Below, piece by piece: positions 2,427 through 15,041 of a stretch of DNA of 48,166 nt. Where the stretch lies: IMG/VR virus record IMGVR_UViG_3300028706_000011, positions 1-48,166 of that record; one strand, 5' to 3'. The DNA comes from a virus. The notes under the pieces were generated by a model. It did no database searches. It was not told the DNA's origin and was given only the letters and a program-made list of their open reading frames with translations. Made by a program: the position numbers and the translations under genes. Each line of letters starts with the position of its first letter. The stretch's first letter is position 1.

Positions 2427-5183
2427 TTAAGAGAAAAGGTCTGAGAATGAAAAACCACCACTGTCTGATTTTTCTTTAGCGTTGTCCGTATTAGAACTAT
2501 CACCAGTAGCAGCCTCATTAGCCCGTCTATTAGCTGTGGCTACATAATGTGCCGCTGTTTCAGGGAAAGCTCTAAGAGATTCTTTTTCTCTATCTGATAG
2601 ATGTTCAGCTACGTTTGCACTTGTGTTTGGATTACTTACATCTAAACGGCTAGACTTTTCATCTCGTGGTGCAGATGTCCTACCTGCCTCACCCATATCC
2701 GTAGTTGCATAAGAAGGTGCTGCGTTTGTAGAAACCCCTGCTGACCTTGCTTTTTCCATTGCTGCTTTTTGTTCTGCATCAGATAAATCAGGATCATCAA
2801 AAGCAGTACCTTTAGTTACAGCACCTGTTATAGGATCTACTCTATCTTTTCCAATCCCAAAGCCATTTGTAAATGCATCATATCCTGTTTTAAAACCACT
2901 ATCAGATGCAGAAAATAGACCTTCATAGTAATCATCTCTTGCTTTTTCTGACGTAAACATTAAGTCAAGACCGTCAGGTGATTTACCACCACTATCTTTA
3001 AAACCACCATATAATCTATCAGATGCAGCCTTAACAGCGTTAGAATAAATATCAATTTGTTGCTGATTAACGTTACCGCTTTTCATTCTACTTGCTAAGC
3101 TTTGTTGAACAGCCTCTGCTTGTTTTTTTTCTGCCTGTTCCGCAAATTTAGATAATCCTAAAGAAACTCCTGGACCACCAAGTGCAAAGCCGATACTTCC
3201 TACAAAAAGTTTTTCTAATGAACCCATAGGTTTAGACTTAGAATAACCTTCATAATCTTCATCTGTCCAATCCTTCACTGCTTTATTACGAAAGGTTTTA
3301 TCTGATATACCAATAGACTCTAAAGAAATATCTTCCTTATCGTCACCCCTCTCAGCAGCCACTGTTTTTTGCTCTTCTACAACATCCTGCGATACTTCAC
3401 GAAAGCCAGCAGGTATACGGCTCATGGGTCTACCATTAAAGTAGTATATTATAATACGCTGACCTGTCTCAGGACTAGTAAAAGTCTTAGACTCAAAGCC
3501 CATAAAAGGTGAACCTGTACCACCGTAACCTCCATAGCCACCACCTACAGGTTTAGGTACAGTTATACCTGCACCAGGTACACCACCACCCTCATTCATG
3601 TTTATAGGTGTATCTGTGTCTTGTGTATTTTCATCGTCTGCTGTTTCTAGTTCATCATCTCTAAAGTAAGACTCTTCACCTTCATTAATACGTTTCCAAC
3701 CTTCTTCTGCAGATTTTTGTAGCTCTTCAAAAAACTCTGTACCAAAGTAGCGTCTAGTTGCAGCATTAATCATAAACTCATTAGGACTAGCATTGATAGG
3801 TACATCATCACGTACCTCTTCTGGTTTGGCTCCAAGAGGTGCAGTGTTGCCACTTACAGGATCTTTAGTCTCACTCATAATGAGATCCATTTCTGTTTGT
3901 ATGGGTTCGTTATTATTAGATATAGATCCACCAACAGCCATATCCGTACCAGAACTAGACGTTAATAAATAATCTTGTTGGCCTGTATACATATCTTCTT
4001 CCCCTATTAATCCACCTTGAGCAAATTTTTTACCAAGTATATTTTCTACTTCATCTCTGTATGGTAAATCTTTTACCCCTGCAGCTTCTTGTGCAGATTT
4101 TGCTTCTTCTCTACTCAATACTCGTGATACTTTCATATCACCACCAACTACCCATGTATCTCCATCTGCTTGACCATCTACGTATGAGTAGCTACCACCT
4201 TTAGGTACTTTATCATTAATGTCAGTACGGCCTCTTTCTTTCATATAAGTAAGTAGCTCATCACTTGTATCGTCTGCCATTTCTACTTCTGCCCAGACTT
4301 GATCTTCAGCCCTACGTTTTACGTAGTATTGATCACCACGGGTTCTTATAGCTTTTGGATTGATACCTGCATTAACAAGTTGTTCTGCTTCTTTTTTAGT
4401 TATTTTTAAATCCTGTGGACCTAAATGTTCTGCTACAGGATTCATACTAGCATGCCATCCAGGTCTAGCAGCAACAGCAGTCACTTTACCATAGGGTGCA
4501 TCTTTAGTACGTTTTGTTTTTTCTGTAATGTACCCTGAATCAATAAGTTTTTTTCTTGTTTCTTCATCTGGTATATTTATAGAATCTCCAGTTTTTTTTG
4601 TTTTTTCACCCTTTTTACGTTTAGCACCCTTAGTAGGTACGTAAAATCCTTCTTTACCTGCTTTTGTAGTTCCTTTAAAAGCTACATCAGGAAAGTCTGC
4701 TTCTAAAAAAGACCCTTGAGGTACTTCATCTGCAGCATTTACAAATAAAGGATATAGCTTGTCATCTGATTGTACAAATAATTTATATGCCTTACGAGTT
4801 TTTTTAAAAGGTTCATCTACAACAGAAGATGAAGAAGGTTTTAATTTAATATTTCCACCTAAACTACCTAAAGCATTAGGATCAACTTCAATACGCTTAC
4901 CTACATCTAAAGCTTTCTTGGCACCTGATCTTATAGCACTGGCTGCAGCATCACCTAATCCTGGAATAAGTCCTATCATTGCTGCACCGCCCAGCGCACC
5001 AACTAAAATATAGTTAGGGTCATCTTTCTGTAACTCATCGTAAACTTCTTTAGCTGCCATAGCATCGCCAATGACAGGTGTAGCTGAAGCAACAAAGGTA
5101 GCAGCATCTTCTAATGTAATATTATCCACACGCTCTGCATAACGCCCCTCAGGGTCTTGTCTTCTTTTAGGATTTAGGGCCAT
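2427..5183 (-). CDS. Large structural protein of unknown role, about 918 aa
   Basis: A long protein between portal and scaffold. Residues about 20-80 hold a glycine/alanine-rich hydrophobic stretch (VGALGGAAMIGLIPGLGDAA) that could sit in a membrane. The middle is lysine-rich, and around residue 470 is a segment of the form VPINASPNEFMINAATRRYF, a motif I have seen in proteins of many marine podoviruses. Then comes a glycine-rich linker (GGGYGGYGGTG) and a helical, charged C-terminal third. An ATG three codons upstream (5192) is possible, but an AAGGG site lies 9 bases before the ATG at 5183 and only about 0-1 bases before the other, so 5183 is preferred. Function unknown; virion-associated by position. 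Confidence 0.7.
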   Translation of the reverse strand: MALNPKRRQDPEGRYAERVDNITLEDAATFVASATPVIGDAMAAKEVYDELQKDDPNYILVGALGGAAMIGLIPGLGDAAASAIRSGAKKALDVGKRIEVDPNALGSLGGNIKLKPSSSSVVDEPFKKTRKAYKLFVQSDDKLYPLFVNAADEVPQGSFLEADFPDVAFKGTTKAGKEGFYVPTKGAKRKKGEKTKKTGDSINIPDEETRKKLIDSGYITEKTKRTKDAPYGKVTAVAARPGWHASMNPVAEHLGPQDLKITKKEAEQLVNAGINPKAIRTRGDQYYVKRRAEDQVWAEVEMADDTSDELLTYMKERGRTDINDKVPKGGSYSYVDGQADGDTWVVGGDMKVSRVLSREEAKSAQEAAGVKDLPYRDEVENILGKKFAQGGLIGEEDMYTGQQDYLLTSSSGTDMAVGGSISNNNEPIQTEMDLIMSETKDPVSGNTAPLGAKPEEVRDDVPINASPNEFMINAATRRYFGTEFFEELQKSAEEGWKRINEGEESYFRDDELETADDENTQDTDTPINMNEGGGVPGAGITVPKPVGGGYGGYGGTGSPFMGFESKTFTSPETGQRIIIYYFNGRPMSRIPAGFREVSQDVVEEQKTVAAERGDDKEDISLESIGISDKTFRNKAVKDWTDEDYEGYSKSKPMGSLEKLFVGSIGFALGGPGVSLGLSKFAEQAEKKQAEAVQQSLASRMKSGNVNQQQIDIYSNAVKAASDRLYGGFKDSGGKSPDGLDLMFTSEKARDDYYEGLFSASDSGFKTGYDAFTNGFGIGKDRVDPITGAVTKGTAFDDPDLSDAEQKAAMEKARSAGVSTNAAPSYATTDMGEAGRTSAPRDEKSSRLDVSNPNTSANVAEHLSDREKESLRAFPETAAHYVATANRRANEAATGDSSNTDNAKEKSDSGGFSFSDLFS

Positions 5184-10085: not shown

Positions 10086-10271
10086 TCATTTGTATCCCCC
10101 ACCTTTTGCTTTATATTGCTTTGCAACCATCTGAGCTTTCCTGGCGCTCCATTGTCCGGGCTTTCCACCTTTCCCGCCAGCTTTAACGGAAGCAACAAGG
10201 CGCTTACGCATACTAGGCTTAGTATAATTACCCGCTGCATTAACCGTAGACTTTTTGCCTGATTTCTCCAC
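10086..10271 (-). CDS. Small basic protein with a GQWSARKAQ motif, 61 aa
   Basis: A lysine/glycine-rich protein with the conserved marine-phage pattern YTKPSMRKRL ... GKGGKPGQWSARKAQ ... GGGYK, which I believe is catalogued as DUF5872. The start is GTG at 10271-10269, nested in the end of the DUF1127-like gene in another frame, so the two are probably translationally coupled. Role unknown; the charge suggests DNA or RNA contact. Confidence 0.7.
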   Translation of the reverse strand: MEKSGKKSTVNAAGNYTKPSMRKRLVASVKAGGKGGKPGQWSARKAQMVAKQYKAKGGGYK

Positions 10272-10380
10272 GGCTTATCCCCATATCGTGCAGTTCTTTG
10301 TCAGATAGATTCATAAGAATCCAGTAGTCTGCCCTGCGTTGTTGACTGTCTTGAATACGCTTCATTAACTTTTTAAACAT
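10240..10380 (-). CDS. DUF1127-like micro-protein, 46 aa
   Basis: A 46-codon gene with ATG at 10380-10378 and a clear AAGGAG nine bases upstream. It begins MFKKLMKRIQDSQQRR and ends NLSDKELHDMGISRGEI plus six residues. The LSDxELxDxGISRxxI pattern is the hallmark of DUF1127, small arginine-rich proteins common in Alphaproteobacteria, some of which bind RNA (CcaF1 of Rhodobacter). This suggests the phage uses it to act on host RNA metabolism or nutrient regulation, which is inference. It overlaps the next gene by 32 bases. Its ribosome site is inside a 9-base hairpin (see 10386-10416). Confidence 0.78.
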   Translation of the reverse strand: MFKKLMKRIQDSQQRRADYWILMNLSDKELHDMGISRGEIRQKVYG

Positions 10381-12502: not shown

Positions 12503-12787
12503 TTACCACGCTTTACATGACCAGTAACGAGCAGTGAACTTGTCCTTAGCTGTGTCACAACTATGTCTAGCTCTAAAGTTCTTACGGGCACCAGGGTTAT
12601 CTTTACGGATTGGCATGTCAGGATCACCAAAACGTACAACTTTTACTTCACTGCCCTTCTTAGCTAACACAGCAGACTTCTTAGCCTCACCCGATAGCCG
12701 TTTTGGTTTGTTATAACCAGGATATGTTTCACCACGGTACTTTAACTTCCCACTAGGCAAACGTTCTACATCTTTAGTTGTAGCCAT
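12503..12787 (-). CDS. Conserved phage protein with C-terminal Cys pair, 94 aa
   Basis: The C-terminal half carries the pattern VRFGDPDMPIRKDNPGARKNFRARH..C....D....YWSCKAW, which I recall from small proteins of T4-like and T7-like cyanophages and pelagiphages. The two cysteines with nearby H could bind metal. Basic and without a known role. Its start overlaps the stop of the upstream gene by one base. Confidence 0.7.
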   Translation of the reverse strand: MATTKDVERLPSGKLKYRGETYPGYNKPKRLSGEAKKSAVLAKKGSEVKVVRFGDPDMPIRKDNPGARKNFRARHSCDTAKDKFTARYWSCKAW

Positions 12788-13047
12788 TACTCTCCGTAGC
12801 CTCGTTCTCTGTCAGGGTCTAAGACCTCGTGACGTTGTAAATGTCCTTCCATGTACATAGCACGTTCTACATGGTCTAAACTGTACCATTCTCCTGTACG
12901 GTTGTACATAGCTTCACGTACATAGAACACATCTGACTTAGGAATGTGAACTTTGTTTAGTATACGTGTGTTATTTGATGCTATAGCTTCGTAAAAGTCT
13001 TCAATGACTCGTTCACTTGCATATAGTTGTACTGGTTTTCTGTACAT
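12787..13047 (-). CDS. First gene of the leftward block, about 86 aa, unknown
   Basis: A small protein (MYRKPVQLYASERVIEDFY...) with charged helices and an acidic C-terminus. An ATG at 13047 is chosen; a TTG two codons earlier (13053) is also open. No strong ribosome site is seen. It is the first gene after the divergent region and follows a hairpin plus U-tract (13074-13155), so its expression may be controlled by read-through. No family recognised. Confidence 0.6.
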   Translation of the reverse strand: MYRKPVQLYASERVIEDFYEAIASNNTRILNKVHIPKSDVFYVREAMYNRTGEWYSLDHVERAMYMEGHLQRHEVLDPDRERGYGE

Positions 13048-13080
13048 TGTCAAGTCTTATTTTATTAAAAGAGAAAAAAA

Positions 13081-13155
13081 GTGTTACAACCGCATGTTAG
13101 TACATTAGGAGAGGAGACACATAAGAGAGAGCAGTACTTTATGTGGTTGTAACAC
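13081..13155 (-). terminator. Long hairpin followed by a U-tract upstream of the packaging block
   Basis: A 15-base inverted repeat (13081-13095 with 13141-13155) with a single non-Watson-Crick pair (G92 with T44, a G-U wobble in rightward RNA and a C-A mismatch in leftward RNA). A second inner stem AGTAC/GTACT (13099-13103 with 13134-13138) closes most of the loop. In the leftward direction the stem is followed at once by seven T residues and TCTCTTTT, as in an intrinsic terminator. It lies between the leftward promoter candidate and the first gene, so it may work as an attenuator. Confidence 0.5.
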
Positions 13156-13366
13156 TATAGTTTAACTATATAGTTTATTTTTATTATAGTTATAAGACAA
13201 TAGTAGACTATTTCTATGTACATGTCAATAGTTATTTTATAAAAATACAAACATTGTATAGTTTAACTATAAGTTTAACTATCTTTGTTCTATTTCTTAA
13301 GTTATAACTGTATAGTTTAACTATCCTATGTCCAATTCTTTAAGTTTTAACTTATAGTTTAACTTA
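13156..13366. repeat. Array of TATAGTTTAACTATA-type palindromes
   Basis: A 15-base near-palindrome, TATAGTT-T-AACTATA, occurs exactly at 13156-13170 and 13257-13271, with one mismatch at 13311-13325, and as partial copies with the core AGTTTAACT at 13272-13280 and 13357-13365. Looser relatives (AAGTTATAACT near 13299, TAAGTTTTAACTTA near 13341) fill the gaps. The array flanks and overlaps the leftward promoter candidate. It looks like a binding array for a dimeric regulator or a replication initiator. Confidence 0.6.
13200..13228 (-). promoter_or_regulatory. Leftward sigma70-like promoter
   Basis: On the minus strand: perfect TTGACA (13228-13223), 17-base spacer, TACTAT (13205-13200, four of six). 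A start near 13193 would give a leader of about 145 bases that contains one AGTTTAACT palindrome and the U-tract hairpin before the first leftward gene. Confidence 0.42.
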
Positions 13367-13550
13367 GGCTGCTACTGCTACGCAGTTTTACACAAAAAAA
13401 CACCTTTGTCAAGTAGTTACGTTACGTCACTTTGTATATTTTTCTTACATGTTATGGCTTTATAGACAATCTAGGTAGTACATATACAAGATGTAGTGCT
13501 CAAAAGTAAAAACCCCGTGTGTTGCAGAGTGTGTATATATATACGCCATA

Positions 13551-13580
13551 CCCCCCGGTGGCCCTCGCCCGCCCCTCGAT
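13551..13580. other. GC-rich island in the divergent region
   Basis: 25 of 30 bases are G or C (CCCCCCGGTGGCCCTCGCCC and the next ten bases), in a region that is otherwise strongly AT-rich. It directly follows an alternating TGTGTATATATATAC tract (about 13530-13544). It has no coding signal and no tRNA-like T-loop pattern. It could be an attachment site core, an origin element or a protein site; the sequence alone does not decide. Confidence 0.45.
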
Positions 13581-13753
13581 GGAACAAACAGCGAACAAAA
13601 GCAGCGCAAAACAGGAACATTGATGCTTTTCTTTTTAGATTTACTTTTTTGGTGATGATTTAGACTAGCAAGTGTTTGTTTTTGTTACATAAAAAGACTG
13701 ATATGCCGTCTGTCTTAACGTAATTAAATGAACAAGCGTTCAATTCTCAAGAG

Positions 13754-13835
13754 TGTGATCACAAATCAGTAGTGGATGCACAACTTTGTGATCACAAATA
13801 GCAACACCACCAAGCCACCCTAGAATGTGATCACA
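13754..13835. repeat. Three TGTGATCACA palindromes (likely operators)
   Basis: Exact 10-base palindromes at 13754-13763, 13787-13796 and 13826-13835, with starts 33 and 39 bases apart; the middle one extends to a 14-base palindrome, TTTGTGATCACAAA (13785-13798). All are followed by A-runs. They lie 170-250 bases upstream of the rightward promoter. The pattern is that of operators for a dimeric regulator, but no repressor gene is recognised in the window. Each holds a central GATC. Confidence 0.6.
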
Positions 13836-14000
13836 AAACACCCCACCCCATAGCTAAGCTTGCACAGTACACCCCTAGGTTGTGTTAGCCTGGCGAACGC
13901 AGCTTAAAGATGAACATGGCTTGTTCTACCTAAGAAACTTTTTTTATTATTGTGTATTTTCAATAACTTACACAAAAGTAATTTTTTTATATTTTATGGG

Positions 14001-14028
14001 TTGACACATTTTTAGATCTCCATAAAAT
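14001..14028 (+). promoter_or_regulatory. Rightward early promoter
   Basis: Perfect TTGACA (14001-14006), 16-base spacer, TAAAAT (14023-14028, five of six). A transcript from about 14035 would carry a 40-base leader with an AAAAGGAAAAAC site before the first rightward gene. Confidence 0.6.
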
Positions 14029-14077
14029 CAAGGGCAAGGCAAAACAGAAACAACGGACAAACAAAAGGAAAAACAAA

Positions 14078-14275
14078 ATGTTAAATATTGATAGAATTGA
14101 ATTAATTAAATCTTTGATCCGTACTTATCACCAGTTAAATAAAAATAACGTTTCTTTTCAACCTGCTATATATGCGGAAATTGAAGAGCATTTATCTTAC
14201 CTAATGCTACCTTGTGAGAATAAAATTTTTATAGATAGTTATGAGTTTCACGGCGTTGACTGTGCAAAAATATAA
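14078..14275 (+). CDS. First gene of the rightward block, 65 aa, unknown
   Basis: A small mixed protein (MLNIDRIELIKSLIRTYHQL..., later EIEEHLSYLMLPCENKIFI) with ATG 7 bases after an AAAGGAAA site. It is the first gene after the rightward promoter, the position where phages often keep host-takeover genes. No family recognised. Confidence 0.6.
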   Translation: MLNIDRIELIKSLIRTYHQLNKNNVSFQPAIYAEIEEHLSYLMLPCENKIFIDSYEFHGVDCAKI

Positions 14276-14300
14276 ACGTTTACAAAAAAGGAAAAACACG

Positions 14301-15041
14301 ATGGAAAAGCTAACATTAAAAAGCGCAATTGAAAACAGCGGCAAGGTATCACTTGGCAACACTAAGATGCCAAGCACAACATTTGCCATCAGCGCAAAGC
14401 ATTGCAATGTAGGTGGCAAGCTTGTCAATGTTCAAAATTCTACATGTTCTCGTTGTTATGCTCTTAAGCTTCAAAAGCTTCGCCCTTCCGTTGACACTGG
14501 CTGGACAAACAATTTATTCAAAGCGGTTAAAATGATTGAAGAAAACTCTAAGCTTTGGGCTAAGATGCAAGCTTTTCAAATAGAAAGGGGATGCAAAAAG
14601 CTAGGCGTAAACTTTCACCGTTGGTTTGACAGTGGTGATTTACAGTCTGTTGCAATGTTGCGTGCAATTGTTTTGACAGCAGAAAGAACACCAGAAATAA
14701 AGCATTGGTTGCCTACACGTGAAGCAAAGCTTGTGAAGCTTTACCGCAAAGAATACGGACAAGAGCCTAGCAATCTAGTCATCCGTGTTAGTGCTACAAT
14801 GATAAGCGATAAGCCTATTGCTGGTCATGCTAATACGTCCACCGTCCACCGTAAAGGCGAAACAATACACGGTAAAGCTTGCTTAGCATATAGAACCAAT
14901 AAGAATTCAAAAGTAATTGAAGAGCAAGCTTTCAAAGATATGACAAGAGAACAAAAGAAAGAGCAAGATTTTGGTCACTGTGGCGATTGCCGTGCTTGCT
15001 GGTCTAAGACGGTTGACAATATCTCGTACCCTTTGCACTAG
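14301..15041 (+). CDS. Gp88-like protein, 246 aa
   Basis: The sequence has the pattern of the phage Gene product 88 family: TFAISAKHCNVGGKL..., a CSRCYALKLQKL segment, HRWFDSGDLQSVAMLRAIV, HWLPTREAKLVKLYRK and LVIRVSATMI, and a cysteine-rich end (FGHCGDCRACW). The spaced Cys pairs could bind a metal. A frame open from 14241 adds 20 residues, but the ATG at 14301 has an AAAAAAGGAAAAA site and matches the family start better. No function is established for the family. The gene is rich in Lys-Leu coded AAG-CTT. Confidence 0.8.
   Translation: MEKLTLKSAIENSGKVSLGNTKMPSTTFAISAKHCNVGGKLVNVQNSTCSRCYALKLQKLRPSVDTGWTNNLFKAVKMIEENSKLWAKMQAFQIERGCKKLGVNFHRWFDSGDLQSVAMLRAIVLTAERTPEIKHWLPTREAKLVKLYRKEYGQEPSNLVIRVSATMISDKPIAGHANTSTVHRKGETIHGKACLAYRTNKNSKVIEEQAFKDMTREQKKEQDFGHCGDCRACWSKTVDNISYPLH

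Follow-up and report, generated by a model that had tools for sequence, protein, structure and literature searches.

A conserved, helically phased palindrome array in the early control region of HMO-2011-type phages and their relatives

Which protein, if any, acts on the short palindromes that are clustered in the early control region of an HMO-2011-type phage? To our knowledge, no repressor has been recognised in the integrase-carrying HMO-2011-type phages and cobaviruses, and their gene control is undescribed. The DNA analysed here (i.e., the window, meaning the whole stretch of 48,166 nt) was assigned to an HMO-2011-type phage close to the Roseobacter phages CRP-603 and CRP-2 via DNA and protein matches and shared families, and it has the hallmark gene set of such phages, with DNA polymerase, helicase, portal and terminase arranged in two convergent arms. 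HMO-2011-type isolates infect RCA roseobacters or SAR116 (PMC6918029, PMC9038755).

The palindrome array and its surroundings

The first-pass annotation had described three exact 10-base palindromes, one of them extended to 14 bases, with start spacings of 33 and 39 bases. Exact searching and shuffling confirmed this layout, with TGTGATCACA being present in exactly three copies in the 48,166-nt window (vs. 0.12 expected from dinucleotide shuffles, none of which reached three). Copy 1 is located at 13754–13763, copy 2 at 13787–13796 (extended to the 14-base palindrome TTTGTGATCACAAA, 13785–13798), and copy 3, again an exact match to TGTGATCACA, at 13826–13835, yielding start-to-start distances of 33 and 39 bp; no strand is assigned to any of them. 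No further copies, allowing up to one mismatch, were found elsewhere in the 48 kb. All three copies reside in the divergent region at 13054–14077, in which no convincing gene could be discerned, so that their gene-free location was borne out as well. No Rfam match was obtained within 13000–14400, a plasmid search returned nothing relevant, and no literature concerning phages was found to contain the 10-mer. The TGTGATCACA copies form a conserved array of operator type, which apparently has not been described before although its general kind is known.

The first leftward gene (12787–13053, minus strand) encodes F0, an 88-aa protein conserved in HMO-2011-type phages and found only in isolates of this type and in one metagenomic podovirus record. 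The rightward genes start with a 65-aa ORF, followed by a gene of the GP88 family (PF17338; 14241–15041, plus strand), which is the first recognisable early gene and has no assigned function. Near the terminase genes, a 46-aa arginine-rich protein (10240–10380, minus strand) resembles the DUF1127 family; a CRP-603 protein encoded at the equivalent position carries the DUF1127 annotation, and relatives are encoded in 15 of the 18 site-bearing genomes that were compared (i.e., the window, 5 isolates and 12 long contigs). Moreover, GTTTAAC and GTTTAA-NN-TTAAAC near-palindrome repeats recur at 13154–13370 of the window and in three of its relatives, lying either towards the late genes from the array or in the interval that separates it from the C-rich block described below.

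Conservation and helical phasing among relatives

Two checks proposed in the first-pass annotation, i.e., whether the palindrome recurs in the same region of relatives and whether it occurs at random across the genome, both came out without refuting the operator proposal. All nine viral loci that were found via the downstream GP88 gene, and whose sequence reached the region, contained two or three exact copies despite diverged flanking DNA, while the palindrome was carried by 20 of 20 long related metagenomic records and confined to the one cluster, the exceptions being two records with a single stray copy each and a third with a terminal assembly overlap. Among isolates, the palindrome was found at the same junction in CRP-603 (four copies), CRP-1 (two), CRP-345 (two), CRP-2 (one only) and CRP-13 (two exact copies plus one with a mismatch), and more than 100 IMG/VR contigs, cobaviruses included, had one to four copies at this locus and hardly any outside it. 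When 2.9 million IMG/VR viral contigs were scanned for paired TGTGATCACA copies 35–65 bp apart, at least 119 loci were retrieved, as opposed to 1 and 2 loci when two control palindromes, built around GATC with the same base composition, were sought in the identical paired layout. About 99 among the 119 loci listed code for two or more proteins known from HMO-2011-type isolates, and most of those listed are HMO-2011-type or cobavirus-like, with the sites at the same early/late junction. Since the cobavirus-type terminal late gene (families F29/F40) is present in a subset of the site-bearing loci, the palindrome array spans two phage groups.

No palindrome sites were found in HMO-2011, CRP-3, CRP-207 and CRP-9, nor in the cobavirus isolates ICBM1, ICBM2, CRP-4 and CRP-5. 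Restriction-site avoidance, which differs between relatives, is strong in HMO-2011 (L150, L164; zero GATC in the 45 kb tested of L150 vs. 135 expected) and in CRP-207 (L152; one TGATCA vs. 11 expected), and by itself would likely forbid the palindrome there. CRP-9 and CRP-3 infect the same RCA host group without having the sites, indicating that the sites are not essential.

The spacings between copies are whole turns of the DNA helix. Across 63 non-redundant loci, which were only crudely de-replicated, adjacent spacings fell at 20–24, 29–34, 39–48, 52–54, 64–65 and 74–75 bp, with one at 97 bp, and the gaps in between were empty (Rayleigh p of about 2e-12 with one spacing per non-redundant locus, an optimistic value as the loci share ancestry). 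An unbiased check of the whole collection revealed 84 contigs with a spacing of 42–45 bp, vs. 3 at 35–38 bp and 1 at 56–59 bp. The 33 and 39 bp spacings of the window belong to the three- and four-turn classes, respectively, with 39 bp at the lower edge of its class. The flanks are polar, with AA bordering about 80% of the copies towards the early genes and T or A on the opposite side. Arrays of TGTGATCACA at a two-turn spacing of 22–23 bp were also observed in five loci of a different phage group, which has a different gene context, and one of these loci (L127) contains six palindrome copies in tandem.

Promoter-like element and inferred genome end

A motif search around the sites, in which the palindromes had been masked, identified AAGSATGYAYRAW in 32 of the 63 loci, where it lies at offset 18 or 19 relative to the start of one copy, most often the first (vs. 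at most 8 per offset in shuffles). In the window this family consensus is represented by GTGGATGCACAAC (13772–13784, plus strand) at +18 from copy 1, with a –10-like hexamer at 13779–13784. The –10-like element is degenerate (often with C at positions 1 and 3) and missing in about half of the loci, cobaviruses included. Since the hexamer lies at a fixed offset, a palindrome copy would be centred near –32, the place of a –35 box, and copy 1 would take up this position in the putative early promoter of the window, with a transcription start predicted near 13791. The palindromes had been annotated as lying upstream of the early promoter, which is roughly right, save that one copy appears to be inside the predicted promoter itself. 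Their proposed role as operators for a dimeric regulator is well supported by the conservation of the footprint, the palindromy, the helical phasing and the fixed offset to the promoter-like element.

More conventional promoter sequences are situated on either side. A leftward sigma-70-like promoter (TTGACA-N16-TAAAAC; 13385–13412, minus strand) points towards the late genes and is conserved in the relatives with better –10 boxes, the form in the window being weaker. Most loci contain a leftward TTGACA-N16/17-TATAAT/C about 240–360 bp from the first copy on the late side. A rightward sigma-70-like promoter (TTGACA-N16-TAAAAT; 14001–14028, plus strand) is located just upstream of the 65-aa ORF, and no counterpart of it was found in the relatives. 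The positions of canonical TTGACA and TATAAT near the sites revealed only a modest TATAAT excess, 40–50 bp past the last copy.

The direct terminal repeat of the cobaviruses ICBM1 and ICBM2 has a C-rich 5′ end (PMC6775973), and a TATA stretch with a C-rich block at 13531–13579 (plus strand) of the window resembles it. A counterpart of this block is also present in the other HMO-2011-type members compared, and the resemblance would place the left end of the linear genome at 13531–13579, with the palindromes about 180–300 bp inside it. HMO-2011-type phages share with cobavirus terminal repeats the succession of a TATA-like stretch and a C-rich block, which suggests one genome-end signal in both. 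The cobavirus terminal region has the same C-rich block and early/late junction as the window, and cobavirus relatives carry the palindromes as well; in the isolates ICBM1, ICBM2, CRP-4 and CRP-5, however, the C-rich block stands without them.

What may bind the array

That the palindromes merely reflect chance or a functionless simple sequence repeat is practically inconceivable. A search for the triple pattern in bacterial genome contigs did retrieve six unrelated tandem repeats (none from Rhodobacteraceae) that contain the same 10-mer, but the control palindromes (1–2 loci vs. at least 119 contigs) refute this explanation, and the DNA between the copies is unrelated while the copies themselves are exactly conserved and helically phased. 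A role of the palindromes as phased protein sites for terminase recognition (pac/cos-like) or for replication initiation near the genome end is quite improbable. It would fit with the proximity of the sites to the inferred terminus (in cobaviruses within the likely terminal repeat, in HMO-2011-type phages shortly beyond it), with the sign change of the GC skew at the site region, and with the phased arrays known from lambda cosB and iteron origins. However, the number of copies, their spacing and their distance to the terminus (27–40 vs. 160–220 bp) all vary, and the GC-skew change also tracks gene direction. Moreover, no sites are present in close relatives whose TerS, DNA polymerase and C-rich block are homologous. 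A packaging signal should be present in all phages of a packaging type, but the sites are missing from CRP-9, CRP-207, CRP-3, HMO-2011, CRP-4, CRP-5, ICBM1 and ICBM2.

Operators of a phage-encoded repressor (i.e., a lambda CI/Cro-like protein or an early autoregulator), possibly serving a lysogeny switch as first proposed, are a somewhat better candidate, yet still an unlikely one. A divergent region with two to four palindromes is indeed a lambda-type layout, many site-bearing phages encode an integrase, and the sites are unique within each genome. The likeness to the lambdoid OL/OR operators of CI and Cro further extends to a spacing that would let dimers cooperate, and would extend to a promoter overlap as predicted from the –10-like element, which lies at a fixed offset from one copy in about half of the loci. 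Nevertheless, the array in the window differs from lambdoid operators in having no repressor gene nearby, all-identical cores, centre spacings of 3–7 turns and a presence that is independent of integrase. Indeed, CRP-13 and three cobavirus records have sites without an integrase, whereas CRP-3, CRP-207 and HMO-2011 have an integrase without sites, and members of the integrase family are encoded by 11 of the 18 genomes with sites and by 3 of the 8 without. Since CRP-3, which lacks the sites, has been shown to integrate into a tRNA gene (PMC6918029), and CRP-13 and the three cobavirus records bear sites without integrase, the lysogeny-switch role was not upheld.

The proposed phage-borne regulator fared no better. 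Among the window proteins tested, no helix-turn-helix regulator was recognised, and a comparison of the 18 genomes with sites to the 8 without (BLASTP E-value of 1e-4, at which a fast-diverging phage protein could escape) revealed no phage protein family that co-occurs with the sites. Just three families (ribonucleotide reductase, DNA polymerase and a DUF3310 protein) are universal in the 18 site-bearing genomes, and all three are also encoded in siteless ones. The search for a paired regulator therefore came out negative, and the suggestion of a small phage protein did not hold, as no small protein is common to the 18 genomes and missing from the others. F0, predicted to be all-helical and having a good AlphaFold model (pLDDT 84), is not supported as the binding protein, since it has neither a PDB fold match nor a sequence match and is also present in siteless phages. 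Likewise, homologues of the small helix-turn-helix protein annotated in ICBM1 and ICBM2 are encoded in only 2 of 10 HMO-2011-type genomes (CRP-2 and CRP-207) and in some contigs, which does not match the presence of sites. It is thus unlikely that the sites serve a dedicated phage repressor or have a role specific to lysogeny.

That one core is kept exactly across very different early gene sets speaks for a single conserved protein, most simply a host regulator. The palindrome half-sites TGTGA and TCACA are identical to those of CRP/FNR-type sites (TGTGA-N6-TCACA), but they abut without the 6-base spacer, and two 5-base half-sites about 6 bases apart are not found in the palindrome, leaving it with the wrong geometry for a CRP dimer. 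TGTGATCACA does not fit the LexA box GTTC-N7-GTTC either, although separate LexA-type boxes adjoin the array. In the window, such a box (GAACAAACAGCGAAC, i.e., GAAC-N7-GAAC; no strand assigned) was found by sequence match at 13582–13596. In the early control region, GTTC-N7-GTTC on either strand occurs 28 times in 51 kb vs. 0.9 times in shuffles (about 30-fold), and GTTC direct repeats with spacers of 3–6 and 8–12 occur only 0–4 times, the exact spacer being 7. CRP-9 (L153) has LexA-type boxes at 3613–3627 and 3642–3656, and many related loci have such boxes as well. We take GTTC-N7-GTTC to be the SOS box of Alphaproteobacteria, although a literature search retrieved no paper stating so. As judged from these boxes, the SOS response of the host may act on phages of this group, even on some that have no integrase, and the position of the boxes beside the array suggests that the region is a landing place for host regulators. 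Host LexA acts on phage early genes in CTXphi and in Bacillus phage GIL01, and the window resembles these LexA-controlled phages in its LexA-type boxes and in the host DNA-binding protein proposed here to act at the early promoter, but differs from them in that its palindrome is not a LexA box.

The alternative of a host regulator, likewise raised in the first-pass annotation, fits best, as no phage protein tracks the sites. We therefore consider it probable, though far from certain, that the palindromes form a phased operator array for a dimeric protein, most likely a regulator of the Rhodobacteraceae host, that controls the left-end early promoter. Each 10-base palindrome (extended consensus TTTGTGATCACAAA) would be bound by a symmetric dimer, and the whole-turn spacing would set neighbouring dimers on one face of the DNA, where they could touch or loop cooperatively. 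With one copy replacing the –35 box of the rightward early promoter near the inferred left genome end, the bound protein would directly control the first genes after entry, by either repression or activation. The binder would then be a conserved Rhodobacteraceae regulator, presumably of host origin, rather than a phage protein.

Both HMO-2011-type phages and cobaviruses are abundant and widely distributed in the ocean. It is a tentative and rather speculative prospect that an undescribed Rhodobacteraceae protein on phased palindromes at the left-end early promoters of these two groups would decide, together with host LexA, between expression and silence of the entering genome, and that the phages would thereby need no repressor of their own. 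Phased pairs of TTTGTGATCACAAA provide a precise bait for fishing out the regulator, and the LexA-box signature may tie the early genes of these phages to the DNA-damage response of their hosts.
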